Below, piece after piece: positions 4,295-23,012 of a stretch of 23,419 nt of DNA. The stretch spans positions 1-23,419 of the forward strand of contig MFYT01000103.1 in the NCBI GenBank assembly GCA_001789205.1, given 5' to 3'. The notes beneath the pieces were generated by a model that was given only the letters and a program-made list of their open reading frames with translations, was not told the origin of the DNA and ran no database searches. How positions within the stretch are numbered: the stretch's first letter is position 1; every line of letters begins with the position of its first letter. The position numbers and the translations under genes were made by a program. The DNA is from Candidatus Raymondbacteria bacterium RIFOXYA2_FULL_49_16. GTDB taxonomy: Bacteria; Fibrobacterota; OXYB2-FULL-49-7; XYB2-FULL-49-35.

Positions 4295-4310
4295 AGCAAA
4301 TATCGTACCA
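4295..4310 (-). promoter_or_regulatory. rpoN promoter: Sigma-54 (-24/-12) promoter of the BON-OMP-IBP-OmpA unit
   Basis: The minus strand reads TGGTACGATATTTGCT, against the consensus TGGCACRNNNNTTGCW, with one mismatch in the -24 box and exactly 10 nt between GG and GC. The predicted transcript starts near 4285, 24 nt before the first ATG at 4261. Confidence 0.75.
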
Positions 4311-4372
4311 TATTTATTAATTGCCCTTATTTATTGATAAAACCGGAAACAGCCTCGATCTATCCCGAATCT

Positions 4373-4389
4373 ATTCCAGGAAACGAGAA
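4373..4389 (-). promoter_or_regulatory. Candidate enhancer-binding-protein site (weakest copy)
   Basis: The plus strand reads ATTCCAGGAAACGAGAA, which fits the WTTCT-N7-GAGAA element seen in the other intergenic regions, but with a less AT-rich centre. It begins 63 nt beyond the -24 box of the promoter at 4295-4310, the same placement as the better copies. Alone it would not be convincing. Confidence 0.4.
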
Positions 4390-4487
4390 CACCTATTAGC
4401 GCTATTAAGAATTCCGCCATTAACCCCTATAATATTGACTTACATAAGTATTGGTCCAAAAAGTAACCTATGGCCCGGTGCTAAGAT

Positions 4488-7400
4488 TTATTCTTCGATC
4501 ACTATCTCCACAACGTGCTCCTGATGGTCGTCGTTGAGTGTTACTGACCGGTCTTTTCGCTCCACGCCGTCAACAATCACGCGGATCCCCTTGCCCGGTT
4601 TTACCTGATGAAACCCGCAATGATACACAGTCTCTCTGAAACGGTAGTGGACCTTGAAATGTTCCCACTCCGCGGGAATGCAGGGGTTGAAAGTGAGCGT
4701 ACCGGCTTTCAATTGCACACCCAGGACATACTCGACGATGAGCCGGTACATCCATGATGCGGACCCGGTATACCATGTCCAGCCTCCCCGCCCGGTGTGG
4801 GGTTTTGATCCGTAAATATCCGCTGCCATGACATAGGGTTCCACCAGGTATTGCGCGGCTTTCTCCCTGGTTGATCCATGGTTGACCGGATTGATCATGG
4901 ACAACAGATCGTGTACCTGCTGCACCTCCCCCATTTTTGCGAAAGCCATGACAGACCAGATTGCCGCATGTGTGTACTGGCCGCCGTTTTCCCTGACACC
5001 GGGAACATATCCTTTTATATACCCGGGTTCCTGCGCGGATTTGTCAAAGGGAGGGTCCAATAACCTGATCATACCGTTTTGAAAATCAACTAAAAAGCGC
5101 GCAAGGGAACGCATGGCCTGCTGTGATCGCCCGAGTGATCCTGCCCCGGACAAGACCGACCAGCTTTGCACGGTCCCATCTATTTTACACTCTTCATTGT
5201 GTGAGGAGCCGAGGGTGGCGCCATCGTCGCAGAATGCCCGTAGGTACCACTGCCCGTCCCAGGCCTCGGATTCGATTTTTTTCCGCAGCAGTTGAGCTGC
5301 CTCGGCGCACGCTTGGCCAAAGGCCTGGTCCCCGCGCGTCAACGCCAGTGGACCAAATTGTTTGAGAACCGTAAAAAGGAAGAACGCCAGCCACACACTC
5401 TCTCCCGTGCCTTTGGCGCCCACAAGATTCATGCCGTCGTTCCAGTCTCCGCTTCCCATGAGAGGCAGCCCATGCTGGCCAAACCGCAATCCATGCAGAA
5501 TTGCCTGCTTGCAATGCCCGTACAATGTGGCCTTCTGGCGCGTTCTGGCCGGAAGATCATAGAAGGACTCTTCTCCGGGATTAAGAAGACGGCTATCAAG
5601 AAAATGCGTGGTCTCATCCAGAATACCGCTGTCGCCTGTACGGGCTACATAATCGCCCGTGACAAAAGGAAGCCAGAGGTAATCATCTGAAATCATAGTG
5701 CGCACACCGCGTCCTTGGGGGGGGTGCCACCAGTGTTGCACATCGCCCTCGGGGAATTGGCGGGAAGCGCACAGCAGCAGGTGCTCACGGATTAGTCCCG
5801 GCTGCGTATGGACCAGCGCCATTACATCCTGGAGCTGATCACGGAACCCGAACGCACCCCCGGACTGATAGTATCCACTCCGGGCCCATAAACGGGCGGC
5901 CATGGTCTGGTACACAAGCCAGCCGTTTGCCATCACATTCATCGCACCATCCGGCGTTTCGATGGTAATGGCGCCTAACGTATGCTTCCAGAAACTCCAG
6001 ACGCGATCGCGGGCGTCATACGCGGACTGTACACCCTTAAACCGGCGGACCAGGTTCCGGGTTTCTTCTACGTCCTTTCCAACACCCAAGATAAATACTA
6101 TCACCTTTTCCTGTCCCGGCTTCAGGTCAAAATAGACCTGGAGCGCAGCGGCGGGATCAAGTCCGATACCGACCTTGCCTGACAACCGGGTCCGGTGCAG
6201 GGCCGCGGGATCCGCGAGCGTGCCATTTCGCCCGATAAATTCCGTTCTATCCCCGCAGATGCTTCGATTGGCCTCGCTTACCTCAAAAAATACGACGCGG
6301 CCCGGGAACTCCGTGTTGAAGGGATTGCTTGCCAGCAGCGCGCCTGTTTTCGAATCGATCCCGGTCCGTATGTGCATCCGGGTCTTGGAGCGGTTTTCGC
6401 CCAACACAAGTTCCAGAAATCCCGTTGCCGATACCTTGCGGGTAACGGGAGAGCCGTTGCGCACCCGAAGCATCCAGAATTTGACAGGAGCGTCCACGTC
6501 AGCGTACATCCACAACTCCGACTTGAGACGGTATTGCGAGTACTCAAAAACGCTGTACCCGAAACCATGGCGGTTGAGATAGGCCCCGGCTCCAGGAGCG
6601 GGCAGCGGTGTTACGGACCAGAATCGCCCGGAACTTTCGTCACGCAGATACACGGCTTCGCCGCTTCGGTCGCTTACCGGGTCGTTATACCATGGTGTTA
6701 TCCTGAATTCATGCGCATTCTCGAACCACGAATACCCGCCGCTTTGCGAAACAACTGTGCCGAATTGCCTGTTCGCCACAACATTCACCCAGGGCATGGG
6801 TGTGGGATTTCCCTGGTCTATCCGGATGATATACTCCCTGCCGTCGCGCGTGAACCCGCCCCATCCGTTAAAAAAGAGCAGGTTGTCCTGCCGGAAATTC
6901 TCCGGTGCAGGCAGGATACTCTCGTCCCGTGATGCGACAAATTTCGGAACAGGGGTCTCGCCGCGGAAAACCCGCTCAACCTGCTCCGAAAGCATTCCGC
7001 CGCTATCAGTAAAAACCACCCGCGCGGCGGCCAGCATAAGCATCTGGTCCTCGTCCGGCATCTGATCCGGGTGACGCAGAAACACTCCGCCTGTTTTATC
7101 GTACAGGGACGCCTCGGGACCGACGGCGATCAGGCCGATGAGCTGGTCATTAAATATCTGCCGGTACCCGGTACGTTCTTCGTTCCAGATGATAAGATCA
7201 ACCGCCAATCCCATCAATCGCCAATAGGCGTGCGCCTGAATCAGTTTCGCCGCCAGCTCAATTTTAGAAGGGTCGCCGATTCGCAGCAAAACAATGGGCA
7301 GGTCGCCTGAAATACTGTACGCCCATAAATGGGATTGTCCTCGCGCATTTTTCAGAAGCACGGTCTGATCGGCCCTGCGATAGAGGCTGGCATAGAGGAT

Positions 7401-10400
7401 TGAGCTCGCAAGAGTTCCGTACAACCGGGCGTCAGGTTCAGTGGCATTGAGTTGCCGGAGCAGCACGTTCGCATGTATCACCGCCAGATTAAAAACCCGG
7501 TCCGCCAGTTCCCGGTCCTGATATTTTTCGATGAGCGCTTCAGCCTGCGGCCTGGTTTCGGCCATGCCGGTGATATAGCCCACGGTAACGCTCTTGCCCG
7601 GCCCAATGGTCAGCCTGCATCGGATGGCGGCAATAGGATCGAGCACCGGCCCTTCTGTTCCGCCAAGCGGTCCGGGCCTTTCCATAGCCCTGGGCTTTCT
7701 TGTTGACAAGCCTCTCCCGATGAACGCAAGCCGGTCGGTCTCGTACGAAAGATCGCATCCATCGAGGCCGCGTGGCGTGAAAAGGTGGAACATCCAAGGG
7801 CATTGTTCCTCAGGCGACCGCGGCCTTCGGGAACAGAGGACCGCATGACGCTTCCGGAGAATCTCTGTCTGCACAAACAGGTTCGAAAACACGGGGTGCG
7901 AAGCGTCGGCCGCGGGCGGGGCCAAGACCACCTCAGCGTAGCTGGTGAGTTCGACGGTCCGGGACACGCCGGTGAGATTGCTTAGCGTGATGCGTCGGTA
8001 TTCAATATCATCTTCAGGCGAAACCGCGATCTCAGTATAGGTATCCAACCCCCCATCCCGCCGCCTGAACTCGGCGCGGGCCAGGGGAAAAACAGCTTCA
8101 TAATTTTTTGACTCAACGCAGGAGGGCTGAAAAGCCGCGGACCATTGCCGTGCGGCGGACACGTCGTTGACATAGACAAAGGCCCCGCAATCATCCATGG
8201 TCGGGTCTTCGTTCCAGCGAGTTACGGTGAGATCGCGCCACCGGCTATACCCGCCACCCGCATTGGTCACCATTACATGGTAATTGCCATTCGACAAAAG
8301 ATGGACTTCGGGTATGGTTGTATGGGGAGTGGTGAAAATCCGCAACACATCTTCCTGCCCCGGGGGAATTGTCCTCGAACGGAAAAGTTCAGATGGCTGC
8401 ATGAGAAACGGGGACGCCTTTGGCACGCGTTCCTGAAGCAAAAGAGTCGTGGTCCGGAAGAGCGGATCTGACTCGAATCGTTTTGTCATGGGATCACCGG
8501 CGATGGTGTTGACCAGTGAGACAAAACTCATACCCTGATGATGCGCCATGAACGACCGGATCAGGGCCGGGGAATGGCCGTTGGACAGCCGGCTTTGCGT
8601 AAAATCTATCGCCTCGTACAAGCCATACCTGCCTTCGTATCCATCGGCGGCAAGCCGCTCCATGTTTTCGCAGGCCTCTTGCGGTTTGACCATTAGCGCA
8701 AGCGCCGAAGAGTATGGGGAGATCACAAGGTCATTCGCCAATTCCCGCTTAAACCCCAGGTCTGGCACGCCAAAGGAGCGATACTGGTAGTTCAGGCTTG
8801 TATCGGTGCTGTTTTCGGCGGATTCCGAAATGCCCCAGGGCACGCCCCGTATTTTCCCATATTCAATCTGCCGGTCCACAATGGCCTCACAGGTTTGGCC
8901 CAGCAATGTGTTGGCATATCCGGGCATCACTAGCCGCGGCATCAGATACTCGAACATAGAGCCGCCCCACGAAAGCAGGATCGTTTTGCCCCGCCGGATT
9001 GTGATCAGGCGGCCCAGACGGAACCAATGTTCCAGGGGAAGCTTACCGCTTGCTATTCCGATGAAGCTTCCCAGCCGTGATTCGGACGCAAGAAGGTCGT
9101 AATGGCCCTCATCGCGCCTCCGTTTAGCAACATCATATCCTATGACAAGCAGGTTGCGTGAGGTGTCGTACAGCAATTCATAGTCCTGGTCAGCCAGGCC
9201 CTGACACTGGCCGGCCATCTGTTCAAGTTGTGTTATCCGTTCCTGCGCACAGCCGATTCCCAGTATAACCTGCTGTTCAAGAACGCCACGAAGACGCGGA
9301 AGGATTTCCCGCAACAGCGCCATGCTTCCAAGCGTACGATTGTCATCCAATTCCTGTCGAATCAGCGGATCAATGTCTGGGGGGGCCTCTGTCGCAAGCC
9401 AGGGCGCAAGGTAGAGCAGTTCGTCCCGCTGGTCAATGCAGCGGCCCTCAAACGCATTAAACCACCACCGGGCCTCGTCCCCTGCCGCGCGTTCCGCTGT
9501 CAATACCCGCAGTTCATTGATCCGGGTGAGTATGTCGCGGATGCGTTTCAGCGCTAATTCCAGGCCGCACGGCGTTTGTTGGCACTCACGCAGGATTGCC
9601 GCGAGTGACTGTATCCGCATCACACTTTCAGGGTCTTTATCTATTGCGGGAAGGAGGTTTTCCTTGAAGACATCCAGCGTACTGAGGAGACATTCAAAAA
9701 CCTGTTGTTGAAATATCGGTTTATCGGCCAATTCTACCAACCCAGCCCTGAGTGTCAACAGGTAGCCAGCCAGATTGCCGCTATCGACAGTGGAGATATA
9801 GTGCGGCGCCATGGGCTGGAGGGTCTTGGTATCGTACCAGTTATAAAAATGACCCTTAAACCTGCTCATCGCCTCCATGCTTTTTATTGTCTTGCCGGTC
9901 TTTTCAATCAATTGCGCCTGGCCCAGATAGCCCATATCATACGCGCCCAGGTTCGACAGAAGCATCAGGCCAATATTTGTCGGCGATGTTCTATGGGCAA
10001 CGGCCTCGCGGGGTGTTTCCTGATAGTTGTCCGCCGGAAGCCAGTTGTCCTCGGGCCCGGCGAATATTTCGAAATAGCGCCAGGTCTTGCGGGCTATTTT
10101 TTTAAGAAAATCCATCTGTTTAATGGAAAGCCGCGAGGGGCGCGGAACCACGCGCCTGCTGATCCACCACGAAAAAAGAGGCGAAAAAAACCATACCCCA
10201 AGCATGGGCAACACATCCGGCCGTCCCTGGGCCATGAAGTAAGCGCCCAGCAACAGGGCGCACAACGGAGCAATGGCCATGGATCGAATATACACCCGGA
10301 GTCCCCCGCATCGCTCGCGCTTGGCTTTTTCGGAGTCCGTCCATTGTAATAGTTTACGCCGTGATATCAGCATCCGCCAGCATGTGCGCATGATCGCATC

Positions 10401-13043
10401 GAGGTTGGAGAACGCCTCATACGGAAGTACGGCCAGCTCGAAACAGGCCTGAAAAACCCGGAGGCACATGAACCCGCCAATGGACCTGGCATGCGGATAC
10501 AATGGAAATCGAGGAGGGATCTGCGCCGCCTTAAGCACCACCGCAGGCGCGGACGGCAGCAGGAGGACTGCGGCAGCCACCGCGATTCCCAGCCAGGAAG
10601 GTGCGATAAAGAGCCAACTCACTACTATCAACAGCAGCATTCCCGCTGGGACCAGGCTCCGCCTAAGATTGTCAAAGATCTTCCACCGTGATACAGCCGA
10701 AATGGGGTTTTTAACTGATGCAAGCCTGAACCCGGGCACAAGGGGTTGCAGCCATGCCGCGATCTGCCAGTCGCCCCGTATCCAGCGATGGCGTCGCACG
10801 CGCTCATCCCTATAGTGTTCCGGGAATTCATCAACCATCTGCACATCGCTGACAAACCCCGACCTGCAGTAGGTGCCTTCCAGAAGATCGTGGCTCAAAA
10901 TCCGGTTTTCGGGCAGCCGTTTTGCCAAGGCCATGGCGAACATATCAACGTCGTAAATGCCCTTGCCAATGAAGGAGCCTTCACCGAATACGTCCTGATA
11001 CACATCCGAGACAGCGCGGGTATAGGGATCAATTCCTGAATCGCATCCGAAAAGACGGGAATACCATGAAGCGCCAATCGCGGGCAGGCTTGAAACAACC
11101 CTCGGCTGCAAAATCGCGTAGCCATCCACAACACGCCCTTTCACGCGGTCATAGACGGGCGCGTTGAGCGGATGGGCTATGGCCTCGATCAAGTGCCGTG
11201 CGCAGTCACGGGGCAATTCGGTGTCTGTATCGAGCGTGAGAACATATTTGATATCAGGCGCTATCGTACCATCGCCTTCAATAAGAAACCCGGTTTTCTC
11301 CCGCGAACGCAGGAAACCGTTCAGGGCTTCGAGCTTTCCTCTTTTTCGTTCATAGCCCATCCACCGCCGTTCACGCGGGTTCCACTTCCGTGGACGGTGA
11401 AAAAATAGAAATGGCCGATGCCCGTCACGAGCGTAGGTGTCGTTGAGCTGTCGCATGCCATCCCTGGCCAGTTCCAGCAGCGCCGCGTCGCCAGGCATGG
11501 TTTCCGCCTGTGCGTCCTCAAAATCAGTCAACAGGCTGAAGTATACGTTCGCGGCGCGATTGGACAAATAACATACCTCCATTTTATTCAGGAGCCCAGC
11601 CACAGCGCGGTGGTCCGCGAGCATGGCCGGCACGGTAATCAGGGTGCATGATTCTCTCGGGATTCCCGGCAAAAAGTCCATTTTAGGAAGCGATCGCGGC
11701 ATGATCACGAGGGTGATAGCCCAGTTTACAAGCGACACGGCCGCCTGGCTAAATCCGATGACCATCAGGACACCCGCGACCCAGAGCGTCATTGCGCTCG
11801 CGCCATGCGTTTCCCGCAGAACAATACCGGTGAAGACGACGGTGACAAACGCCAACGATCCCAGATAAAACAACAAAGGCGCTTTGTTACATAGGCGGTT
11901 AAGCGCTTCTCTTCTTGTCAGCCTAACGCCCAGAATGCGCTCCAGCACCGGCCGCTGACGATCGACCAGATAGGCGCCAACGTGGGCTGTTCTCGATCCG
12001 TATTCCGCGCTCCGGGCCAGGGCGACCGTTTGCGCCGCGACATGTTCCTCGGTCGTATGGCTTTGCCGGGCCATCTTTTCGATCACATGCCGGTAGGTGT
12101 CTCGTGTGGTAAAATCCATTTTCGGATACACCCCGGCTGGATCTTCGCGGAGAAGAGCTTCCACCTGGCTCATCTCCTCGACAAAACATTGCCAGTTGAT
12201 TGAGGTCAAAAACCTGAGGCTGGTGATGCTATTTCCAATGGCAATGTGGTTAATCGCCTGCTGCTGACTGTCTAGGTGCACCTGCCGTTCAATCGTCTGC
12301 CCCTGTTCGGTCAGACGCTGTTCTATCCAGGTTAAAACCAGAGCGAGCGCCGGATTATGGCTCTGAAGCTTCCGTACTAGCTCCGCTATATAGGCGCAGC
12401 TCATTGGAATGTTGGCGCGCGCCATGTCTGCTATGTCAAGTATAATGTTTTTGGGGTCCTGTTCAGCTGTCTCAAACATTCTGGCGGCCCAAAAAACAGC
12501 CACAGCGCGGTCTTGACGGCCCACCGCAATTCTCGCCGCAATATGTCCCAGATTTTCTATGAGTGCAAGCCGCACCATAATGGGAATGGCCCATAACTCC
12601 CCCAATTTCAGCGGCGTCACCCGCTGGTACGAGGAAATAATAGTGCGGAGATTGGCCTCATCAACACGCCCGTCAACATGGAAGATCAGTTCACGGACAA
12701 TCTCGTACACACGGGGCAGACCCGCCGAAGGCCCTGCACGGAGACGGGGCAGTTCGCGGCTATAGTGCTGGGGAAGATGCAGACGGACCAGCTGGATTTG
12801 TTCCTTTATCAGGTAAAAATTGTCCTGAAGCCATATGCCCGCTGGGGAAATACCGCCTTTGGCCGCCTCCCCATCTGTGAGTTGCCGGTAGACCTCGGAC
12901 AGTTTTCTTTCATTTTCGGTTAACCGTATCAACAGTTTTTCGCGAACGGGACGGTGGTCCAGTTCATGCAGCCGTGCCATTGCCTCGCCCTGTTTGTCGA
13001 GCTGGTCACTGCTGAAGAGATCACTCAACAGAGGATAGTCCAA
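4488..13043 (-). CDS. ndvB: Cyclic beta-1,2-glucan synthase (NdvB/ChvB-like)
   Basis: This 2851-residue inner-membrane enzyme matches the usual NdvB/ChvB length (about 2830). Family members polymerise UDP-glucose, cyclise the chain and export a periplasmic beta-1,2-glucan. Domains seen: a helical N-terminal region (1-385); membrane helices at about 390-455; a glycosyltransferase (GT84) region with DTD at 605-607 and HRWIRGDWQ around Trp754; further membrane helices at about 800-840 and 920-965; a glycoamylase-like domain (about 985-1530, WGISESAE at 1403-1410), which performs cyclisation in this family (GH189); and a GH94 phosphorylase-like region with beta-sandwiches near 1575 and 2055 and an alpha-barrel carrying GDWNDG at 2532-2537. 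The frame given begins with TTG at 13041-13043 and lacks a good ribosome site. An upstream ATG at 13139-13141 is one base out of frame (see findings). It is a single-gene unit with a sigma-54 promoter at 13203-13218. Confidence 0.93.
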   Translation of the reverse strand: MDYPLLSDLFSSDQLDKQGEAMARLHELDHRPVREKLLIRLTENERKLSEVYRQLTDGEAAKGGISPAGIWLQDNFYLIKEQIQLVRLHLPQHYSRELPRLRAGPSAGLPRVYEIVRELIFHVDGRVDEANLRTIISSYQRVTPLKLGELWAIPIMVRLALIENLGHIAARIAVGRQDRAVAVFWAARMFETAEQDPKNIILDIADMARANIPMSCAYIAELVRKLQSHNPALALVLTWIEQRLTEQGQTIERQVHLDSQQQAINHIAIGNSITSLRFLTSINWQCFVEEMSQVEALLREDPAGVYPKMDFTTRDTYRHVIEKMARQSHTTEEHVAAQTVALARSAEYGSRTAHVGAYLVDRQRPVLERILGVRLTRREALNRLCNKAPLLFYLGSLAFVTVVFTGIVLRETHGASAMTLWVAGVLMVIGFSQAAVSLVNWAITLVIMPRSLPKMDFLPGIPRESCTLITVPAMLADHRAVAGLLNKMEVCYLSNRAANVYFSLLTDFEDAQAETMPGDAALLELARDGMRQLNDTYARDGHRPFLFFHRPRKWNPRERRWMGYERKRGKLEALNGFLRSREKTGFLIEGDGTIAPDIKYVLTLDTDTELPRDCARHLIEAIAHPLNAPVYDRVKGRVVDGYAILQPRVVSSLPAIGASWYSRLFGCDSGIDPYTRAVSDVYQDVFGEGSFIGKGIYDVDMFAMALAKRLPENRILSHDLLEGTYCRSGFVSDVQMVDEFPEHYRDERVRRHRWIRGDWQIAAWLQPLVPGFRLASVKNPISAVSRWKIFDNLRRSLVPAGMLLLIVVSWLFIAPSWLGIAVAAAVLLLPSAPAVVLKAAQIPPRFPLYPHARSIGGFMCLRVFQACFELAVLPYEAFSNLDAIMRTCWRMLISRRKLLQWTDSEKAKRERCGGLRVYIRSMAIAPLCALLLGAYFMAQGRPDVLPMLGVWFFSPLFSWWISRRVVPRPSRLSIKQMDFLKKIARKTWRYFEIFAGPEDNWLPADNYQETPREAVAHRTSPTNIGLMLLSNLGAYDMGYLGQAQLIEKTGKTIKSMEAMSRFKGHFYNWYDTKTLQPMAPHYISTVDSGNLAGYLLTLRAGLVELADKPIFQQQVFECLLSTLDVFKENLLPAIDKDPESVMRIQSLAAILRECQQTPCGLELALKRIRDILTRINELRVLTAERAAGDEARWWFNAFEGRCIDQRDELLYLAPWLATEAPPDIDPLIRQELDDNRTLGSMALLREILPRLRGVLEQQVILGIGCAQERITQLEQMAGQCQGLADQDYELLYDTSRNLLVIGYDVAKRRRDEGHYDLLASESRLGSFIGIASGKLPLEHWFRLGRLITIRRGKTILLSWGGSMFEYLMPRLVMPGYANTLLGQTCEAIVDRQIEYGKIRGVPWGISESAENSTDTSLNYQYRSFGVPDLGFKRELANDLVISPYSSALALMVKPQEACENMERLAADGYEGRYGLYEAIDFTQSRLSNGHSPALIRSFMAHHQGMSFVSLVNTIAGDPMTKRFESDPLFRTTTLLLQERVPKASPFLMQPSELFRSRTIPPGQEDVLRIFTTPHTTIPEVHLLSNGNYHVMVTNAGGGYSRWRDLTVTRWNEDPTMDDCGAFVYVNDVSAARQWSAAFQPSCVESKNYEAVFPLARAEFRRRDGGLDTYTEIAVSPEDDIEYRRITLSNLTGVSRTVELTSYAEVVLAPPAADASHPVFSNLFVQTEILRKRHAVLCSRRPRSPEEQCPWMFHLFTPRGLDGCDLSYETDRLAFIGRGLSTRKPRAMERPGPLGGTEGPVLDPIAAIRCRLTIGPGKSVTVGYITGMAETRPQAEALIEKYQDRELADRVFNLAVIHANVLLRQLNATEPDARLYGTLASSILYASLYRRADQTVLLKNARGQSHLWAYSISGDLPIVLLRIGDPSKIELAAKLIQAHAYWRLMGLAVDLIIWNEERTGYRQIFNDQLIGLIAVGPEASLYDKTGGVFLRHPDQMPDEDQMLMLAAARVVFTDSGGMLSEQVERVFRGETPVPKFVASRDESILPAPENFRQDNLLFFNGWGGFTRDGREYIIRIDQGNPTPMPWVNVVANRQFGTVVSQSGGYSWFENAHEFRITPWYNDPVSDRSGEAVYLRDESSGRFWSVTPLPAPGAGAYLNRHGFGYSVFEYSQYRLKSELWMYADVDAPVKFWMLRVRNGSPVTRKVSATGFLELVLGENRSKTRMHIRTGIDSKTGALLASNPFNTEFPGRVVFFEVSEANRSICGDRTEFIGRNGTLADPAALHRTRLSGKVGIGLDPAAALQVYFDLKPGQEKVIVFILGVGKDVEETRNLVRRFKGVQSAYDARDRVWSFWKHTLGAITIETPDGAMNVMANGWLVYQTMAARLWARSGYYQSGGAFGFRDQLQDVMALVHTQPGLIREHLLLCASRQFPEGDVQHWWHPPQGRGVRTMISDDYLWLPFVTGDYVARTGDSGILDETTHFLDSRLLNPGEESFYDLPARTRQKATLYGHCKQAILHGLRFGQHGLPLMGSGDWNDGMNLVGAKGTGESVWLAFFLFTVLKQFGPLALTRGDQAFGQACAEAAQLLRKKIESEAWDGQWYLRAFCDDGATLGSSHNEECKIDGTVQSWSVLSGAGSLGRSQQAMRSLARFLVDFQNGMIRLLDPPFDKSAQEPGYIKGYVPGVRENGGQYTHAAIWSVMAFAKMGEVQQVHDLLSMINPVNHGSTREKAAQYLVEPYVMAADIYGSKPHTGRGGWTWYTGSASWMYRLIVEYVLGVQLKAGTLTFNPCIPAEWEHFKVHYRFRETVYHCGFHQVKPGKGIRVIVDGVERKDRSVTLNDDHQEHVVEIVIEE

Positions 13044-13218: not shown

Positions 13219-13293
13219 ATCAACCGGGGTTTGGGTTGGACGTCACACCAGTCCATTCTCCATTTCGTACTGGTTTACGCTTATGAGAAATTC

Positions 13294-15668: not shown

Positions 15669-15707
15669 ACAATCCTTTGAACAAGACACATACGCAGGTA
15701 ATAACGG

Positions 15708-16304
15708 TTAAAAAAGGACACTTATTCCCAGACTGTATTTTCCCGGATTTCCCGCGTCAACCGTTCTGAGCAGCGTCTGAACATTGAGGTCCAGCATAAG
15801 CTGCGCTGACGAGGTACGGAAAAACGCTATGCCAGCGGACCCGCCGGCCGCAAAACCAAACGCGGCGTCAAAATCAGGCTTTTTAGCAAGGGCAAGCCCG
15901 AAATCAAACCCAAGGAAGGGGGAAATATTCGTTCGTGTCAGGTAAAAGTTGGAGCCGATCGTGGCCGCGAGAAAAAACGCGGGAGCGGAAAAGTTAAACA
16001 CATTGTCTGATTTGAACTTGATGGCCGCCCATGGCGCCACTTCCCAATAATGCGCGTAGTGAAACAAATAAGCAACCCTGTTCGAAGACACTCCCCATAA
16101 CCCTGCTGGCCCAAGTCCCAATGCCATATATTTTTTCGCGGTAATTCTTCGTGCAATCTGCGTTTCCTCTTTGTTTGAAATGTCTCCTACCGCCGGACCC
16201 TCATGTGACGATGTTGAATCCCGGACACCCTCCGCCTGTAAGAACGCCGCGGCGCCAATAAACACAATCCAGATGCAAACTAAAGGCAGTAAAGGCTTGA
16301 ACAT
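15708..16304 (-). CDS. Predicted outer-membrane protein
   Basis: This 198-residue protein has a signal peptide (about 1-24, ending FLQA) and a short polar Ser/Glu-rich segment. Glycine- and aromatic-rich strands then run to a terminal SVLF, consistent with a small outer-membrane barrel. No family is recognised. AGGAG lies 7 nt before the ATG. It is the first gene of a two-gene unit with the propeller gene at 14433. The upstream gap carries a strong sigma-54 promoter (16371-16386) and a candidate activator site (16454-16470). Confidence 0.7.
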   Translation of the reverse strand: MFKPLLPLVCIWIVFIGAAAFLQAEGVRDSTSSHEGPAVGDISNKEETQIARRITAKKYMALGLGPAGLWGVSSNRVAYLFHYAHYWEVAPWAAIKFKSDNVFNFSAPAFFLAATIGSNFYLTRTNISPFLGFDFGLALAKKPDFDAAFGFAAGGSAGIAFFRTSSAQLMLDLNVQTLLRTVDAGNPGKYSLGISVLF

Positions 16305-16370: not shown

Positions 16371-16386
16371 TGCAATAATGATGCCA
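16371..16386 (-). promoter_or_regulatory. rpoN promoter: Sigma-54 promoter of the 16304-14433 unit
   Basis: The minus strand reads TGGCATCATTATTGCA. Only the last base of TGGCAC and the purine after it differ from consensus, and the GG-GC spacing is exactly 10 nt. The predicted start near 16360 leaves a leader of about 56 nt before the ATG at 16304. Confidence 0.8.
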
Positions 16387-16453: not shown

Positions 16454-16470
16454 ATTTCTATTTATGAGAA
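16454..16470 (-). promoter_or_regulatory. Candidate enhancer-binding-protein site
   Basis: The plus strand reads ATTTCTATTTATGAGAA. The ATTTATGAGAA half is identical to the one at 21930-21940. It begins 68 nt beyond the -24 box of the promoter at 16371-16386 and so would be centred about 100 nt upstream of the transcript start. Confidence 0.6.
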
Positions 16471-16543
16471 TCCATGTCTTAAAAATGAATCCCCATAGAA
16501 AGTATGATTGCATGTTTCCTGGACCGCATACCCTCAAAACCGC

Positions 16544-18316
16544 TCAGCGGCTGGTATATGAATACCGTAGGATAAGCCGGTGTTCAGACTCCTTTTTTTT
16601 GCCTAAGACCTGAATATCGCAGAAAGAATAGGTGTACTGGTAGTCAAGGGTGACAACCCGTGAAATCTGCCAGCTCAGAATGCTGATTATATCGAGTTTT
16701 GGCATTCCACGGTTTTTCGCTGGAACAATAGGCAGAAAGAGGCGGACTTCCGACTTTGCCGTTGCCCTGCCGCCGACACGGACATCCAGAACAGCCGCTG
16801 CTTCGGGGCCAATGGCGTTTTCGGTCATGGCGGATATGGGCATAAGGACGGTACTCCTGGATATCTGCAACGAATCGCTTTGGCGTACCGCGGCCGGAAT
16901 GGTCGATACGTCGACTATTTCGTAATACTTTCGCGTATGGATGAATTCATACGCAAACCCAGTGCGCAGCCGGGCGTCCACATACCGCACTTTAACCAAG
17001 TCCATGTTCGCACCCACGCTACCGGTAAGTTCGGTTGGAGAAAAAGAAGGCTCCCGTTCGCGCGGAGCGCTGATGGTATCATACTGGTCCCTGTATCCGT
17101 TGTCATTGAGAAGATAAAAAAACGGTTTATTGTTGATTTGGTCGGGAAACACCCGTTTGGGGAAGATGGTGGAAGTGGCCTCGAAACGGCCATAGGGACC
17201 AAACCACGATAAAACCCGCCAGATAAAAAGCGACGTAAGCCGCGGTTCATCGATATTGGGTTCAATAACCGTCTTGCCGGGATTAGTGAGGCTTATCTCC
17301 GACAGCGCGAATCCTTCATCTAATTTTAAACTGGTACTCCAGTTATACGGAGGTTTTTCATAGCGAAACCATGAATTGAGCAGCACAGCGATGGTTGAGG
17401 TCGTCGTGTTGTTTGCGTTTTGCAGATGATCGACTTTTGCATTAAAAAGGATATTGCCGCCAATGTCTATCCCATACTTCCAATATGTTGCAAGGTTTTG
17501 AGGCGTTAAAATATCCACAATTCCGCCGCTGGTAATTTTATTGAAAGAGGCCGGGTCTTCAACAAGAATAAAATTTATTAACTGGCCAGGTAAAAGCCGT
17601 ACTGTCACGAAATTTTTCAGCGTATTGTAGTTTTCGCCCGGACCCATAATTTTATAGAGCCCTGGTTTTAGTATCCAGGTCTTGGTTTCTTCCCCCAGGC
17701 TGGGATCCGGGCCATAGCTGCGGCCAAAAGGCGCGAACGAATCAACGCGCGTAAGTTCGTATTCTCCGCGAAAGGCGATCCCGTTTTCATCCACGACATT
17801 GATGGACAGACCCGCCCAGCCGGGAACAATGGGCATGGACCTGCCTTCGGTTACATCGACCGTATGCACCAACCGCTGGTGTTGCGAACCGCTGCCATGG
17901 ATGACATAATACCGGCCTGGCAGCACCGCATAATTTCGACCCGTATTTCCCTCTCCAACAACAGTGCCGGCCGAATCAAGTATTTCCACAGCGGGTTCGA
18001 GGCCCAACTCGCTAAGCCGCGGAATAAAAATCGCCCCCTTGCCCACTGGAATATTGGTGTTGTCCGAAGCGATCTGCTGGGCCAGCGAAGGGGCTTCCCA
18101 GGTTTTTTCCGCCTCTTGAAGCCAGGTTGCCGGCGTTTTGGAGGCTGATGGCGGTTCCTTGACAGAAATGCTGTCGGGAGGCAGCAACCGCTGGAGGTAT
18201 TCACCGCTTATATCATCTCCGGGAAGGTCCGGGGGCTGGCTCGCAAACACACAGGCGCTGGCCAAAATAAAAACAGCGGGAAGCAACCGCGAACACCGAT
18301 GGATTGTATCGCGCAT
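16544..18316 (-). CDS. Predicted outer-membrane protein of the Mla/Mce-type operon
   Basis: This 590-residue protein has a signal peptide (about 1-26, ending VFAS). Next comes a Pro/Ser-rich linker, then about 75-250 with two beta-sandwich-like segments (AVEILDSAGTVVGEGNTG, VLPGRYYVIHG; LKPGLYKIMGPGENYN) resembling PEGA or carboxypeptidase-regulatory folds. The last 330 residues alternate amphipathic strands rich in Tyr/Trp/Arg (YWKYGIDIGGNILF, TLDYQYTYSF, HRLILRYSYTSR), suggesting a large beta-barrel. I recognise no named family. Its ATG lies 2 nt after the stop of the PqiC-like gene, so it is tightly coupled to the lipid transport genes. By context it may be the outer-membrane end of that transporter; this is inference. 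Confidence 0.7.
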   Translation of the reverse strand: MRDTIHRCSRLLPAVFILASACVFASQPPDLPGDDISGEYLQRLLPPDSISVKEPPSASKTPATWLQEAEKTWEAPSLAQQIASDNTNIPVGKGAIFIPRLSELGLEPAVEILDSAGTVVGEGNTGRNYAVLPGRYYVIHGSGSQHQRLVHTVDVTEGRSMPIVPGWAGLSINVVDENGIAFRGEYELTRVDSFAPFGRSYGPDPSLGEETKTWILKPGLYKIMGPGENYNTLKNFVTVRLLPGQLINFILVEDPASFNKITSGGIVDILTPQNLATYWKYGIDIGGNILFNAKVDHLQNANNTTTSTIAVLLNSWFRYEKPPYNWSTSLKLDEGFALSEISLTNPGKTVIEPNIDEPRLTSLFIWRVLSWFGPYGRFEATSTIFPKRVFPDQINNKPFFYLLNDNGYRDQYDTISAPREREPSFSPTELTGSVGANMDLVKVRYVDARLRTGFAYEFIHTRKYYEIVDVSTIPAAVRQSDSLQISRSTVLMPISAMTENAIGPEAAAVLDVRVGGRATAKSEVRLFLPIVPAKNRGMPKLDIISILSWQISRVVTLDYQYTYSFCDIQVLGKKKESEHRLILRYSYTSR

Positions 18317-18318
18317 TC

Positions 18319-18963
18319 TTATTGCACCCCGCGCTGCCCGTTAGCGCTGTCCAGGACTTGGTCCAGGTCGCCGACCACCTGATTCATGATGAATTCCATT
18401 ATCGACGACATCTCCTTGACCACGCTCTGCGGATCGTTTTTGAAAACACGTTTACGCTTGTCAAACCTGCGGCTGTACACTGTTTGTCCGTCCGACGTAC
18501 GGGTAAGCTGGAACCGCAGGGCCATGTGCGCGAACCACACCTGGTCGCTGTCGTATTCATCAATCGCCTCAATTGTCCCGCTGAGCTCAAAATCCGGCTT
18601 CTCGCCCCCGTCATACCTGCGGACAATGCCGCGGGCGATATCTACCGCGACAAGATGCTTGAAAATAAGATCGTTTATCATGCGGGCCGGTTTTACGGCC
18701 CATACCTGATAAAAGTAAAACTGGAGCTGATAGGCATTCTGACGGTAGACTATTTGCGGCCGGGCATAGGCCTCCTCAATGCTGAGGTCCTTCAGCCGGA
18801 TAATGGAGGGATACGGCGTTTCGTTCAAGCGGTTCTGCAGCGCCATGGGAATATAATTGAGTAAATAATATTTCTTCACTGGAACAATACCGCATCCGGC
18901 CATTACAAGGGCGGCTATAAGAAGGGTTAAAAACATGGGGGGCCGGGGGTATGTATTTTTCAC
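18319..18963 (-). CDS. PqiC-like ABC-transport auxiliary lipoprotein
   Basis: This 214-residue protein starts with a lipoprotein signal peptide whose lipobox is MAGC, with the lipidated Cys at 24. The body (about 29-200) fits the ABC-type transport auxiliary family (PF03886) that includes PqiC/YmbA: YYLLNYIP near the start, then I-x-x-YDSDQVWFAHMALRFQLT and VYSRRFDKR. Family members sit on the inner face of the outer membrane and accompany MCE proteins. Its ATG overlaps the stop of the MCE gene by four bases (ATGA at 18960-18963). The next gene begins 2 nt after its stop. Confidence 0.83.
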   Translation of the reverse strand: MKNTYPRPPMFLTLLIAALVMAGCGIVPVKKYYLLNYIPMALQNRLNETPYPSIIRLKDLSIEEAYARPQIVYRQNAYQLQFYFYQVWAVKPARMINDLIFKHLVAVDIARGIVRRYDGGEKPDFELSGTIEAIDEYDSDQVWFAHMALRFQLTRTSDGQTVYSRRFDKRKRVFKNDPQSVVKEMSSIMEFIMNQVVGDLDQVLDSANGQRGVQ

Positions 18964-19877
18964 GGCGTCTCCCGTTCTTTCTGCTGCTCGCCTTTCAGCA
19001 GCAGCGAGGGGTTTTCAGCAAGGACCTTGCTCAGTTCATTGGCGTTTTCAAGCGTTTCACGCAGATTTTCCATGGAGACCGTGATGTCTTCGCGCGACTG
19101 TTTTACAATGAACGATATGTCCTGAGAAAGCTGCTGCATGAATTGCGCGGTGGAATCAATGGAAGCCAGGATGCGCCCCATATTTCCCGAACCAAATGAC
19201 CGGTTCGTTTCGCCGGTAATTGATTTTACATCGCGCGAAATACTGTCCACGCGCGCTATAATGTTCTGGAAAGAGCCGGCTATGGTAACAAAATCGGGCC
19301 GCATAACAGCGAAAAACTGGCGCGCGTCTTCGCTGATGGCCGCGGTATTGTCCACAATCCTTTTTATTCCCTTGAGCGTATCGGGATCGGTAATTGCGTT
19401 GAGGTGGTTGAGCAGCAGTTCAATCTTTCCCATGATCACCTCAGCCTGGCCCGTAATGGTTGTCATCATCGACTTTTTCGTTGGAATGGCGGAGCCGGGC
19501 GGCAGACCGGGCGCTTCATTGGTCCCACCGAGCAGTTCCACATATTTGAGTCCCGTAATGCCCATGGCGCCGGTCTGCGCAACCATGTCGGTCTTTACCG
19601 GAAAATCCTCCTGGATTTTAAACGTGACCTTTACCCGGAGAAGATTCGCGGGATCGTATGAGATACGGTCCACCTTCCCTACCGGTACTCCATGAAATTT
19701 GAGAATCGCCCCCTGTTCAAGTCCCGAGAGCGACTCGCCTTCGAAACTCGCCCAGTATGTTTTCTGCTTGTCCACGAGTTTGAAACCAATGGGAATGGCG
19801 ATAAAGAAAAACAGGCAGACCGCCCCGCCGATCATAAATACGCCGAGCCGCGCCCTCTGTAATTTTGAGATGCTCAT
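18960..19877 (-). CDS. mlaD: MCE-domain lipid-transport protein (MlaD-like)
   Basis: This 305-residue protein has one N-terminal membrane helix (about 12-33) that anchors it in the inner membrane with the rest in the periplasm. A single MCE domain covers about 38-118 (SLSGLEQGAILKFHGVPVGKV, then GITGLKYVELLGG). A long helical region of about 145-290 with heptad-like leucines could form a coiled coil or bridge toward the outer membrane. In the Mla family MlaD is a hexameric lipid-binding ring on the transporter. It is longer than E. coli MlaD (about 183 residues), as in many non-proteobacterial homologues. The start overlaps the ATPase stop by four bases (ATGA at 19874-19877). Confidence 0.9.
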   Translation of the reverse strand: MSISKLQRARLGVFMIGGAVCLFFFIAIPIGFKLVDKQKTYWASFEGESLSGLEQGAILKFHGVPVGKVDRISYDPANLLRVKVTFKIQEDFPVKTDMVAQTGAMGITGLKYVELLGGTNEAPGLPPGSAIPTKKSMMTTITGQAEVIMGKIELLLNHLNAITDPDTLKGIKRIVDNTAAISEDARQFFAVMRPDFVTIAGSFQNIIARVDSISRDVKSITGETNRSFGSGNMGRILASIDSTAQFMQQLSQDISFIVKQSREDITVSMENLRETLENANELSKVLAENPSLLLKGEQQKERETP

Positions 19878-20671
19878 GCCACGTTCTCCACTATAAAATC
19901 GCTGGTCTCGTCCACGGCTTCCGGCGCCGCCAGTTCCCGGCGCGCGAAAAAGTCGTGCATGGGCCCATCGGGCGCTTTGCGGGCCTGGTCCTGGACGCCA
20001 CTGTACAAAACCGAACCTTCATGCAGAAATAAAATGGAATCCGCGATACGCTCGATTGATAACAATTCATGCGTTACCACGACAATGGTAATGCCCAGGG
20101 ATTCGCGAAGCGTGAGCAAAAGATCGTCAAGACCCGCTGACGTAACAGGATCGAGCCCGGCCGACGGTTCGTCGCAAAACAATAAGGGCGGTTCGAGCGC
20201 CAGCGCGCGTGCAAGGGCAGCCCGTTTGCGCATGCCGCCCGAAAGCTCTGACGGAAATAGATACGCGGCATTGGGTATGCCAACCTGCGAAAGTTTGATA
20301 TGGACCATTTCATCTATCACGTCCCGGGGAAGCGCGGTATGCATGGCAAGGGGCAGCGCCACGTTTTCTGCGATGTTCAGGCTTCCAAGAAGAGCGCCAT
20401 TCTGAAACAGCGTCCCGGCTTTTTTAAGCATGTCCACGCTCGCGGGAGAATCCTGGTCCGCCAGTGTATGGCCGAAAAGCCGGACAACTCCTGAAACGGG
20501 CGTAATCAGCCCCAGCAGTGTTTTCAGCAGTGTTGTTTTACCGCAGCCCGATGTGCCCAGAATCGCCGTGATGCGCGACGGCATGAATGCCGCCGAGACC
20601 GCTTTGAGCACCACATGCTCACCGTAGCGCACGGTTACGTTTTCCGCTTCGACAATGGGTTGCTGGTCCAT
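19874..20671 (-). CDS. mlaF: ABC transporter ATPase, MlaF-like
   Basis: This 265-residue ATPase powers the Mla-type phospholipid transporter. Walker A is GTSGCGKT at 39-46, the Q-loop is near Gln90, the signature LSGGM is at 143-147, Walker B LLFCDE at 163-168, and the switch His at 201. All catalytic motifs are intact. The open frame runs 52 codons further upstream inside the permease gene. I chose the ATG at 20669-20671 because TTGAGG precedes it and the homologous region starts there. It lies 7 nt after the permease stop and overlaps the next gene by four bases, in a tight operon. Confidence 0.93.
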   Translation of the reverse strand: MDQQPIVEAENVTVRYGEHVVLKAVSAAFMPSRITAILGTSGCGKTTLLKTLLGLITPVSGVVRLFGHTLADQDSPASVDMLKKAGTLFQNGALLGSLNIAENVALPLAMHTALPRDVIDEMVHIKLSQVGIPNAAYLFPSELSGGMRKRAALARALALEPPLLFCDEPSAGLDPVTSAGLDDLLLTLRESLGITIVVVTHELLSIERIADSILFLHEGSVLYSGVQDQARKAPDGPMHDFFARRELAAPEAVDETSDFIVENVA

Positions 20672-20678
20672 GTGTGCC

Positions 20679-21761
20679 TCAAATGATAAATGAAAATAAC
20701 GCGTCAGTAATGATGATAATGAATATTCCGGTGACCACACTTGCCGTGGTTTCGCGGCCCACAGCTTCCGCACCCCCGCGTACACGAAACCCGTAAAACA
20801 CGCCGACCCAGATGATGAGCCACGCAAAGACGATTGACTTGATTAACCCGGCCAGGACGTCTTTTATAAAAATATTCTGTGACAATTGGCTCCAAAAAAG
20901 ACTCGATGAGATATCAAGATACGCAAGTGATACCAGAAACCCGCCAAAAATTCCCGTGGCCGTGGACAGCATTGTGAGGATGGGCATGGTGAGCGTTATG
21001 GCCCAGAATTTAGGGACCACAACATACTGGATGGGGTTAATTCCCATTGTTTTCAGCGCATCGATCTCCTCCCCAACCATCATGGTCGCGATCTCGGCTG
21101 TTGTGGCGCTGCCGGTCCTGCCGGCAAGTATTATGGCCGTGAGAATGGGCCCCAGTTCCCTGATCATGGAAATGCCTATCATGGGCGCAAGAAAAATCCC
21201 TGCGCCGTACATGCGCAGCTGAATGGCGGCCTGGAGGGCAAGGACAATCCCGATGAGCATTGAGAGCAGGGCCACGATCCCAAGGGCTTTATACCCGAGT
21301 TGAAACATCTGCTCGCCAAGGGCCCCTTTTTTCATGTCCAGCTTTTTGAACGCGCCAATAGTGCCCCAATAGAACATTTCAGTGAGAACCGAGAGGGCGC
21401 TTGCCGCAACGCTGAAAACCGCGAGTGTCGCTGTTCCCACGGACGACGGGAACCGTTCCCCGAGCTTCACGGAAACAGCAGCCACGGGCTGGGGCACTGC
21501 GGTAATGGCCGACAGCATAGGCCGGGTGATGTTTCGGAGAATAATCTTCTGGTTGCTGCGTTCAAATGTTCTTTTCAGAACATGGACCAGAGAAATCCCG
21601 CTTGAATCAATATCTTTGACTCCTGCGAAGTCTAAAACAACCGGCTTGTCGTGCGAAAAACCTGCGGCAGGGCGGCTGCTGACCCAATCCCGGTTAAAAT
21701 GTTCCGGAAGCCGGATAATTGGCTCTGGTTCCAAGGACAATGATGAGTGAATGTCGGCCAT
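20679..21761 (-). CDS. mlaE: Mla-type ABC permease with N-terminal STAS domain
   Basis: This 360-residue membrane protein fuses a STAS-like domain (about 5-105, with VVLDFAGVKDIDSSGISLV) to an MlaE permease (about 110-360). The permease carries the family hallmarks RELGPILTAIILAGRTG and EEIDALKTMGINPI, with about five membrane helices. It would form the inner-membrane channel for phospholipid exchange with MlaF, MlaD and partners. In proteobacteria the STAS protein (MlaB) is usually separate; the fused form is common elsewhere. I chose the ATG at 21759-21761, preceded by AAGAGAGA, over an upstream GTG at 21818. It is the first gene of a five-gene unit. A sigma-54 promoter lies at 21845-21860. 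Confidence 0.9.
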   Translation of the reverse strand: MADIHSSLSLEPEPIIRLPEHFNRDWVSSRPAAGFSHDKPVVLDFAGVKDIDSSGISLVHVLKRTFERSNQKIILRNITRPMLSAITAVPQPVAAVSVKLGERFPSSVGTATLAVFSVAASALSVLTEMFYWGTIGAFKKLDMKKGALGEQMFQLGYKALGIVALLSMLIGIVLALQAAIQLRMYGAGIFLAPMIGISMIRELGPILTAIILAGRTGSATTAEIATMMVGEEIDALKTMGINPIQYVVVPKFWAITLTMPILTMLSTATGIFGGFLVSLAYLDISSSLFWSQLSQNIFIKDVLAGLIKSIVFAWLIIWVGVFYGFRVRGGAEAVGRETTASVVTGIFIIIITDALFSFII

Positions 21762-21844
21762 TGTCTCTCTTATCTTGGCATAACGGGTCACGGCTTCTAT
21801 TATAATAGAAACACGCACAGCCAGAGTCTACGCATATATTGTAT

Positions 21845-21860
21845 TGCAATAAACATGCCC
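21845..21860 (-). promoter_or_regulatory. rpoN promoter: Sigma-54 promoter of the Mla-type operon
   Basis: The minus strand reads GGGCATGTTTATTGCA. It keeps GGCA, TTGCA and the exact 10-nt GG-GC spacing. The predicted start near 21834 leaves a leader of about 73 nt before the ATG at 21761. Confidence 0.72.
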
Positions 21861-21923
21861 ATGTCATTAACACAATGCATTGGGGCCATTTGTATTCGCC
21901 AATATTATTATATTCAAGAATAC

Positions 21924-21940
21924 TTCTCGATTTATGAGAA
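21924..21940. promoter_or_regulatory. Candidate enhancer site between divergent sigma-54 promoters (best palindrome)
   Basis: TTCTC-GATTTAT-GAGAA is a perfect 5-bp inverted repeat with a 7-nt spacer and is the clearest copy of the element found in five intergenic regions. It lies 64 nt from the -24 box of the Mla operon promoter and 34 nt from that of the LapA promoter. Confidence 0.65.
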
Positions 21941-21973: not shown

Positions 21974-21989
21974 GGGCATTTTTATTGCT
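21974..21989 (+). promoter_or_regulatory. rpoN promoter: Sigma-54 promoter of the LapA-domain unit
   Basis: The sequence GGGCATTTTTATTGCT keeps GGCA, TTGCT and the exact 10-nt GG-GC spacing. The predicted start near 22000 leaves a leader of about 41 nt before the ATG at 22041. Confidence 0.72.
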
Positions 21990-22040: not shown

Positions 22041-22262
22041 ATGCCCCTAATAATAGCCCTGGTAGCTGTAACAGTTTTCTCCGTTATTGTGGCGCTTCAA
22101 AACGCCGCCTTGGTCACAGTGAAGTTTTTGGGCTGGCAGTTTGAAAACACCCTTGCCACCATGATCTTGCTGTCGTTTGCCCTGGGCGCAATTGCGGGCC
22201 TTTTGGTCGCCTTGAGATTCATGGTCAACAAAAACCGTGCGCCCAGCGCTGTGCGGCAATAG
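22041..22262 (+). CDS. LapA-domain (DUF1049) inner-membrane protein
   Basis: This 73-residue protein has two hydrophobic helices (about 2-20 and 40-62) separated by QNAALVTVKFLGWQFENTLA, the hallmark of the LapA/DUF1049 family. LapA works with LapB in controlling LPS assembly in E. coli, but this copy stands without a LapB partner in view, so the role here is open. AAGAAGGGGGG lies about 5 nt before the ATG. It is the first gene of a probable two-gene unit with the basic protein at 22304, with a sigma-54 promoter at 21974-21989. Confidence 0.85.
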   Translation: MPLIIALVAVTVFSVIVALQNAALVTVKFLGWQFENTLATMILLSFALGAIAGLLVALRFMVNKNRAPSAVRQ

Positions 22263-22303
22263 ACTAACGTTTACAGGTTTAATTTTTTAACGGAAGGACC
22301 CAT

Positions 22304-22588
22304 ATGGAAACCAATGAAAGCGTTGTGACAAAAAACGTACGGGAAACCGTGATCAAGGCTGCGGCAGGAATAGGCATTTTAAAAGCTAAGGTCAGCGAAA
22401 AATCAGCTCCATTGAGGAATACAATTAAAACTAAAACGCACGCCATTGCCCGGAATATTGAAGGAAAGCGCCAGAAAATTGAGTTCCAAGCCGGCACTGT
22501 GACTCACAGGGCGATCAAGACGGCAAAAGACGCCATGGTTGGTTTTAAGCAAGGAGTAAGCGAAGTTCGTTCCAGAAAAAAACTCTAG
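22304..22588 (+). CDS. Small basic helical protein of unknown function
   Basis: This 94-residue protein is rich in Lys, Arg, Ala, Thr and Val and strongly basic. It has no clear membrane helix and no signal peptide. Its pattern (RETVIKAAAGIGILKAKV, THRAIKTAKDAMVGF) suggests amphipathic helices, as in YtxH-, late-embryogenesis- or histone-like stress proteins, but I recognise no family. GGAAGG sits about 6 nt before the ATG. It follows the LapA gene by 41 nt on the same strand and is probably cotranscribed from the sigma-54 promoter at 21974-21989. Confidence 0.7.
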   Translation: METNESVVTKNVRETVIKAAAGIGILKAKVSEKSAPLRNTIKTKTHAIARNIEGKRQKIEFQAGTVTHRAIKTAKDAMVGFKQGVSEVRSRKKL

Positions 22589-22657: not shown

Positions 22658-22783
22658 TCACTTCTTTTTTTCCACGTCCATGCGGCCCAGAATCCTGGCG
22701 ATCTTGAGCATGCATAATACACTCACAACCACTATCGAAGTAACACCGAACAACACAGTCAAACACCTTTTCATCTTTTGCAT
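22658..22783 (-). CDS. 41-residue single-helix membrane protein
   Basis: This short gene is hidden under longer meaningless frames. It begins MQKMKRCLTVLFGVTS, continues with a hydrophobic helix (IVVVSVLCML, about residues 8-26), then has a charged tail KIARILGRMDVEKKK and a TGA stop. A perfect AGGAGG (22791-22796 on the complementary strand) lies 7 nt before the ATG. A strong sigma-54 promoter at 22817-22832 would start transcription about 24 nt upstream. Positive residues on both sides make orientation uncertain. I recognise no family. It is a lone gene, convergent with the 94-residue gene and divergent from the second OmpA gene. Confidence 0.7.
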   Translation of the reverse strand: MQKMKRCLTVLFGVTSIVVVSVLCMLKIARILGRMDVEKKK

Positions 22784-22816
22784 GCACATTCCTCCTATGT
22801 TCTTAAGTCCAGACAT

Positions 22817-22832
22817 GCAATAATCAGGCCAA
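22817..22832 (-). promoter_or_regulatory. rpoN promoter: Sigma-54 promoter of the 41-residue protein gene
   Basis: The minus strand reads TGGCCTGATTATTGCA. It keeps TGGC, TTGCA and the exact 10-nt GG-GC spacing. The predicted start near 22807 is about 24 nt upstream of the ATG at 22783. Confidence 0.72.
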
Positions 22833-22896
22833 AATGCGCTAGTAGATTGACAACCAGCGGGTTTACGCTCAAAACTTTCTCAAAACCAGTGCACGC

Positions 22897-22913
22897 ATTC
22901 TTAAAACAGAGAA
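22897..22913. promoter_or_regulatory. Candidate enhancer site between divergent sigma-54 promoters
   Basis: The plus strand reads ATTCTTAAAACAGAGAA, another copy of the WTTCT-N7-GAGAA element. It begins 65 nt beyond the -24 box of the promoter at 22817-22832 and ends 84 nt before that of the OmpA copy 2 promoter. Confidence 0.5.
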
Positions 22914-22996
22914 CACTCTGCTATACAAATTACATACTATAGGCCCAATGGAGAAAATACGGCAATTTTAAGGCCTTTTTTAATCAGTAAGATATC

Positions 22997-23012
22997 TGGC
23001 ACTGTTGTTGCT
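22997..23012 (+). promoter_or_regulatory. rpoN promoter: Sigma-54 promoter of OmpA copy 2
   Basis: The sequence TGGCACTGTTGTTGCT matches the -24 and -12 boxes fully apart from one purine position and has the exact 10-nt GG-GC spacing. The predicted start near 23023 is about 48 nt before the ATG at 23071. Confidence 0.82.

Follow-up and report, generated by a model that had tools for sequence, protein, structure and literature searches.

We analysed a 23,419-nt stretch of DNA (hereafter the window), which is the whole of contig C103 of the genome of Candidatus Raymondbacteria bacterium RIFOXYA2_FULL_49_16 (G000; 5.43 Mb in 112 contigs). It carries eight sites resembling the -24/-12 promoter of sigma-54, one upstream of each predicted transcription unit. 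These sites are probably the sigma-54 promoters of a single envelope and stress-protection regulon in Fibrobacterota, run by a dedicated NtrC-type activator, here called P0002; the promoter sites, a shared upstream element, the activator clade and its gene neighbourhood are all read from sequence statistics.

The initial annotation had listed eight 16-nt matches to the -24/-12 promoter, all with a GG-N10-GC core and each in front of its own transcription unit. All eight are present, exactly once each and where it had placed them, and gene prediction gives eight units with exactly one site apiece. The GG-N10-GC core alone is uninformative, occurring 278 times in the window vs 252 ± 14 expected from shuffles, and sites were therefore scored with a full sigma-54 matrix (TGGCAcg-N4-TTGCw), a textbook consensus with approximated weights that was set beforehand; this matrix, the gene caller and the expectation-maximisation code used here are simple. 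The eight sites are the top eight of the window (12.5-16.3 bits) and all intergenic, followed by a coding match at 12.0 bits. On the minus strand, TGGTACGATATTTGCT (4295-4310, 14.9 bits) precedes the operon of BON, outer-membrane, ice-binding and OmpA proteins (15-4261), TGGCACGAATACTGCT (13203-13218, 16.3 bits) the cyclic glucan synthase gene, TGGCATCATTATTGCA (16371-16386, 15.8 bits) the genes at 15708-16304 and 14433-15689, GGGCATGTTTATTGCA (21845-21860, 15.2 bits) an MlaE/F/D-type operon (16544-21818) and TGGCCTGATTATTGCA (22816-22831, 15.6 bits) a gene for a 41-aa membrane microprotein. On the plus strand, CGGCACAGCAATTGCT (13375-13390, 14.7 bits) lies before a Thivi_2564-family gene, GGGCATTTTTATTGCT (21974-21989, 12.5 bits, the lowest of the eight) before a LapA-domain gene and a 94-aa open reading frame, and TGGCACTGTTGTTGCT (22997-23012, 16.0 bits) before a second OmpA gene.

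As background, we used 400 kb of G000 (20 stretches of 20 kb, a non-exhaustive sample of the genome). There, one of 136 upstream regions reached 12.4 bits, compared with eight out of eight units in the window (Fisher p = 2e-12); sites of at least 13 bits numbered 13 in coding sequence and none in 50 kb of intergenic strand. Both comparisons, with the genomic background and between coding and intergenic placement, had been proposed in the initial annotation, and they set the window sites far above the sample. Chance or base composition could conceivably account for the matches, with the units using ordinary sigma-70 promoters, as the frequency of the bare core and a moderate excess of sigma-70-like matches over shuffles (32 vs 17.0 ± 5.3) might suggest; however, the full-matrix scores and the placement of the sites at every unit make this highly improbable. 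The genome also encodes one RpoN (PF04552, 1.4e-58) with an intact C-terminal ARRTISKYRE box, the presence of which had been a further point to check. RpoS was considered as an alternative driver and rejected, with no model over its cut-off in G000 (best TIGR02394, 239.8 bits vs 378.7 required).

All eight sites are correctly oriented and lie 27-160 nt from the start codon. Measured from the expected +1 position, 12 nt past the GC, the glucan synthase leader is about 149 nt long and the others about 16-56 nt, slightly shorter than the roughly 150 nt and 24-75 nt first given. The block described as an unbroken 23 kb does comprise eight units; as the window is a whole contig, its two ends are set by the assembly.

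The promoters share an upstream element, approximately TTCTCA-N4-TGAGAA, located 56-111 bp before the -24 box, which was first seen by eye as recurring TTCTC...GAGAA dyads. An initial motif from only the five window promoter segments, with no symmetry imposed, did no better than shuffled sequence (34.2 vs 32.9), and a wider set was needed. De novo expectation-maximisation on 13 promoter regions, five from the window, six from contig C98 and two from contig C100, returned ATTCTCATAAnCGnnAA with a log-likelihood ratio of 72.9, vs 46.8 ± 2.3 and at most 51.7 for dinucleotide shuffles. When the motif was trained on C98 and C100 only, the five window regions beat 100, 100, 100, 98.8 and 96.5% of 85 background intergenic segments. 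In the window, the candidate activator sites comprise GTTCTCGTTTCCTGGAA and ATTCTTAATAGCGCTAA on the minus strand (4374-4412), which beat all 85 background segments under the C98- and C100-trained motif and have p=0.000 under a matrix derived from relatives; TTTACGCTTATGAGAAA (13274-13290) and TTTCTTATTATTGAGAA (13294-13310), common to the divergent promoters at 13203 (minus) and 13375 (plus), again with p=0.000 under the relatives' matrix; TTCTCATAAATAGAAAT (16454-16471, minus strand), 84 bp upstream of its -24 box and picked up by both matrices; and ATTATTATATTCAAGAA with the dyad TTCTCGATTTATGAGAA (21924-21940), together spanning 21904-21940 and common to the divergent promoters at 21845 (minus) and 21974 (plus). 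A weak candidate, ATTCTTAAAACAGAGAA (22897-22913, plus strand), is common to the promoters at 22816 (minus) and 22997 (plus), with held-out p values of 0.012-0.035 and p=0.106 under the relatives' matrix.

The element also points to the candidate activator. Genome-wide, TTTNCGNNTATGAGAAT is found within one mismatch at just three places: in the window (C103:13274), at C26:25558, where another sigma-54 site follows 83 bp downstream, and at C98:15777. The last, the sole match with zero mismatches, lies in the promoter region of an operon encoding a small response regulator and P0002, where it precedes a sigma-54 site of 15.6 bits by 87 bp. P0002 (G000:C98:13861-15183) is an NtrC-type response regulator with a receiver (PF00072), an AAA+ (PF00158) and a Fis-type HTH_8 domain (PF02954), and its neighbours encode a PAS-GAF-HisKA-HATPase kinase and a CheB-CheR-PAS protein. 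In 'Fibrobacteres bacterium fen_1185' (G006), a genome of the same phylum that also supplies the closest relative of the triple-BON protein of the window (66% identity, L142), an NtrC-type regulator adjoins a block encoding BON, OmpA, a membrane protein, an ice-binding protein, CsbD, Mla, YtxH, Thivi_2564 and a TamB-like protein, that is, the gene set of the window in one place (CsbD, YtxH and TamB are named there by likeness). The best match of this regulator among the G000 activators is P0002, with 47% identity over 434 aa; the next best reaches 33%.

In the model that we infer, the neighbouring kinase phosphorylates P0002, which binds the element, activates its own operon and serves in stress protection. 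RNA polymerase with RpoN would sit at the -24/-12 sites, and P0002, probably once phosphorylated by the adjoining PAS-GAF histidine kinase and CheB-CheR-PAS protein, would bind the dyad upstream and open the complex through ATP hydrolysis. As the P0002 operon carries this kind of promoter and the element too, it would probably reinforce itself.

P0002 belongs to a monophyletic clade (100/100 support; 15 sequences vs 25 other G000 activators) with one copy in G000, which also takes in the fen_1185 regulator. Of 150 genomes sampled from the phylum, 22 have an ortholog; at the threshold used, none was seen among the f2 genomes listed. The association between clade and element was recovered in both directions. 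A matrix from relatives found the element at 17 of 22 cluster sites in G000 vs 4 of 16 other sigma-54 sites (p=0.003), and the G000 matrix found it in relatives at 21 of 37 sigma-54 sites near the activator vs 5 of 38 elsewhere in the same genomes (p=9e-5). In the same line, 32 upstream segments from near orthologous regulators in relatives of other families, with the window left aside, yielded de novo the same element, nTTCTCATTTTTGCGAA (ratio 115 vs 64.4 ± 5.2). The pairing of P0002 with the element rests on neighbourhood and co-occurrence, and the element might instead belong to another regulator, such as a repressor or a sigma-70 activator overlapping sigma-54 control, with P0002 a bystander; in the glucan synthase promoter, a related palindrome, TGCTCATAAATAGAGCA (13190-13206), overlaps the -12 and start region, a placement that would suit a repressor site. 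Against this stand the position of the element, typical of a sigma-54 enhancer, and its enrichment near the P0002 clade, and we consider a bystander role of P0002 quite unlikely. The palindrome itself might be a second site, through which the regulator of the element, or a different one, represses.

The putative P0002 regulon appears to extend beyond the window. The regulon loci on C103, C98, C100 and C26 together hold 17 intergenic sites of at least 13 bits in 83 kb vs none in the 400-kb control; these loci were partly picked for holding sites, which biases the G000 density outside the window upward and leaves the window comparison and the cross-tests of the element unbiased. C26 carries, with sigma-54 sites and elements, a second Mla operon, genes for TamB and Omp85/TamA, and a microprotein with an AI-2E transporter. 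C100 encodes a BrkB protein and a BON paralog, and C98, in addition to signalling genes, a superoxide reductase, a glycosyl transferase, a GH57 protein, a phosphoenolpyruvate (PEP)-utilising enzyme and pyruvate:ferredoxin oxidoreductase (POR). Genes near orthologs of P0002 in relatives encode OsmC, rubrerythrin, ferritin, desulfoferrodoxin (superoxide reductase), Hsp20, multi-BON proteins and OmpA, as well as BrkB/YihY, an M50-CBS protease, DUF2934, a transglycosylase-associated protein and a sugar transferase. Of the claim of a dedicated envelope regulon in the initial annotation, the dedicated sigma-54 regulon is supported by background, rpoN, placement, shared element and candidate activator. 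The envelope label fits the window as well as the operons for TamA/TamB and the second Mla system on C26, but is too narrow for the whole, because C98 adds superoxide reductase, the PEP-utilising enzyme, POR and signalling, and relatives add OsmC, rubrerythrin, ferritin and Hsp20. A regulon larger than the window, with an envelope core and oxidative and general-stress functions, looks real.

Strong intergenic sigma-54 sites near the orthologs numbered 14 in 40 kb in G018 (vs 7 in 74 kb of same-genome control), 10 in 60 kb in G006 (vs 2 in 119 kb), 4 in 20 kb in G050 (vs 1 in 60 kb) and 9 in 19 kb in G032, so that enrichment near the activator is clear in three of four relatives. The exception is G032, the control stretches of which (L311-L315) are rich too, with 28 intergenic sites of at least 13 bits in 100 kb; local sigma-54 density was hence dropped as sole marker of the regulon, and sigma-54 may be a near-housekeeping factor in this genome. 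Such abundance, together with the 27 clear sigma-54 activators of G000 and the cluster sites lacking a convincing element, would fit genuine sigma-54 promoters served by several activators, their clustering reflecting gene neighbourhood and not one regulon. Yet one element runs through most cluster promoters and was recovered independently near orthologous activators, and G000 has more than one class of sigma-54 promoter, those of flagellar flgF and of several secreted proteins and enzymes being mostly without the element. On balance, we regard control by several activators as unlikely.

Several observations weigh against a single regulon under P0002. Besides P0002, G000 has 26 other activators, which might play a part. 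The element is weak at the promoter pair at 22816 (minus) and 22997 (plus), two C98 sites have no convincing element, and a few sigma-54 sites that lie beyond the clusters, including a flagellar one, score for it as well. Across 40 whole genomes, the exact dyad was only mildly enriched with the activator (42 vs 22 reversed controls; 10 vs 10 in genomes without it). A universal link between BON genes and sigma-54 was dropped: BON orthologs in Verrucomicrobia, Omnitrophota, Deltaproteobacteria and other phyla had a promoter of at least 12 bits in 2 of 49 cases (0.8 expected), and the sigma-54 wiring of BON genes is therefore, as judged from these upstream regions, lineage-specific. Finally, the sigma-54 contact loop of the P0002 clade reads GAFTSA, with variants GSFTSA and GAFTSS, instead of the usual GAFTGA.

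Natural loop variants in the G000 activators L102, L120 and L122 are GAFTNA, GSFTSA and GAFTSA; the residue affected is the glycine at which a substitution renders NorR constitutive. NorR with serine at this position is active without signal and still partly regulated (PMC2941729), and our guess is that GAFTSA might leave P0002 partly active. Like NtrC, ZraR, AtoC and GlrR, P0002 combines a receiver, an AAA+ sigma-54 interaction domain and a Fis-type helix-turn-helix, and the putative activator dyad likewise lies upstream of -24/-12. It differs from these NtrC-type two-component activators in its loop, in forming its own monophyletic clade and in reaching no cut-off of NCBIfam equivalogs (NtrC, ZraR, AtoC, NorR, PspF and others), the best being LuxO (350 of 800 bits), with NtrC at 338 of 558.6.

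OsmC, BON (OsmY), CsbD, Hsp20 and ferritin-like proteins are also typical of the RpoS, EcfG and SigB general stress regulons. The gene families thus overlap, whereas here sigma-54 and an enhancer-binding protein would be the drivers, in a genome where no RpoS model exceeds its cut-off. Psp (PspF) and Zra pair sigma-54 with an activator responding to envelope stress; by comparison, the present system has other targets (glucan, Mla, Tam, OmpA, BON), another activator clade and many scattered units. That sigma-54 controls genes for the cell exterior is known (Francke et al. 2011, PMC3162934), and the Desulfovibrio sigma-54 regulon includes activators with annotations for envelope and general stress (PMC4641369). 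Envelope genes stand under sigma-54 in these regulons and in that of Chlamydia (PMC7482065), as is probably the case here; unlike them, one candidate activator and one element are assigned to many envelope and stress units, in Fibrobacterota. Neither PMC3162934 nor a 2025 cross-phylum survey (PMC12316311) contains the word Fibrobacter, and our literature searches turned up no paper on sigma-54 or sigma factors in Fibrobacter or Fibrobacterota. Seen against these systems, this is a new regulon assembled from known parts.

The minus-strand operon at the left end of the window encodes a 543-aa OmpA-family protein (15-1646; PF00691, 3.6e-16), an ice-binding-like protein (1701-2789; PF11999, 4e-74, and PF18962), an outer-membrane beta-barrel protein (2839-3381; PF13505) and the triple-BON protein (3443-4261; PF04972, 3e-41), with paralogs on C92 and C100. 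Next on this strand is the 2,851-aa cyclic-glucan-synthase-type protein with GH94 domains (4488-13043; PF06165, PF17167, PF10091). On the plus strand follow the Thivi_2564-family membrane protein (13449-13652; NF041949 above cut-off) and a 248-aa exported protein (13649-14395), and on the minus strand a BNR-repeat surface protein (14433-15689; PF15902, PF18962), a putative outer-membrane protein of 198 aa (15708-16304) and a 590-aa exported protein within the Mla-type operon (16544-18316); profile searches gave no family for the 248-, 198- and 590-aa proteins. The rest of the latter operon (18319-21818) encodes a lipid-transport ABC system of auxiliary lipoprotein, MlaD, ATPase and MlaE (PF03886, PF02470, PF00005, PF02405). 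The LapA-domain protein (PF06305) and the 94-aa frame, which has no family and is YtxH-like by eye, occupy 22041-22588 on the plus strand; gene prediction also gave the microprotein (22658-22783, minus strand) and the second OmpA gene (23071-23419, plus strand), truncated by the contig end. The OmpA genes at both contig ends (1-1646 and 23071-23419) have long identical stretches, with 54 40-mers in common, and for this reason the ends are probably assembly breaks caused by the repeat.

C-terminal secretion sorting tails on the ice-binding-like and BNR-repeat proteins suggest that these may reach the surface by type IX-like export. The 41-aa membrane peptide, TVLFGVTSIVVVSVLCMLKIARILGRMDVEK, resembles another tiny membrane peptide, TVLFGIGSIMHACFIFILKITRIWTRMDLGE (L038, 12643-12850), each directly 3' of a sigma-54 site, and a similar reading frame follows a sigma-54 site on C26, making it a candidate conserved microprotein of the regulon. 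Elsewhere in G000, sigma-54 activators of about 700-860 aa with PAS-like N-termini (L137, L139 and L141 on C74, C67 and C17), from a clade of eight in this genome, are divergent from a gene for a coiled protein of 45-75 aa, after which come large secreted proteins; this arrangement is a recurrent second sigma-54 module, perhaps for secreted enzymes.

More broadly, we tentatively propose that several Fibrobacterota lineages outside the Fibrobacter family rely on sigma-54 for their general and envelope stress response, together with a dedicated, self-amplifying NtrC-type activator clade kept partly active by its native GAFTSA loop, in the role of RpoS, EcfG or SigB. The general stress response is well known in few phyla, and a sigma-54 version with a candidate activator, site and target list poses a directly testable question in a phylum that has almost no genetics. 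One switch would tie together lipid transport (Mla, Tam), cyclic glucan, OmpA, BON proteins and oxidative defence, and many small membrane proteins that are so far uncharacterised gain a functional setting from the regulon. The natural GAFTSA activator clade, finally, is a resource for studies of sigma-54 mechanism.

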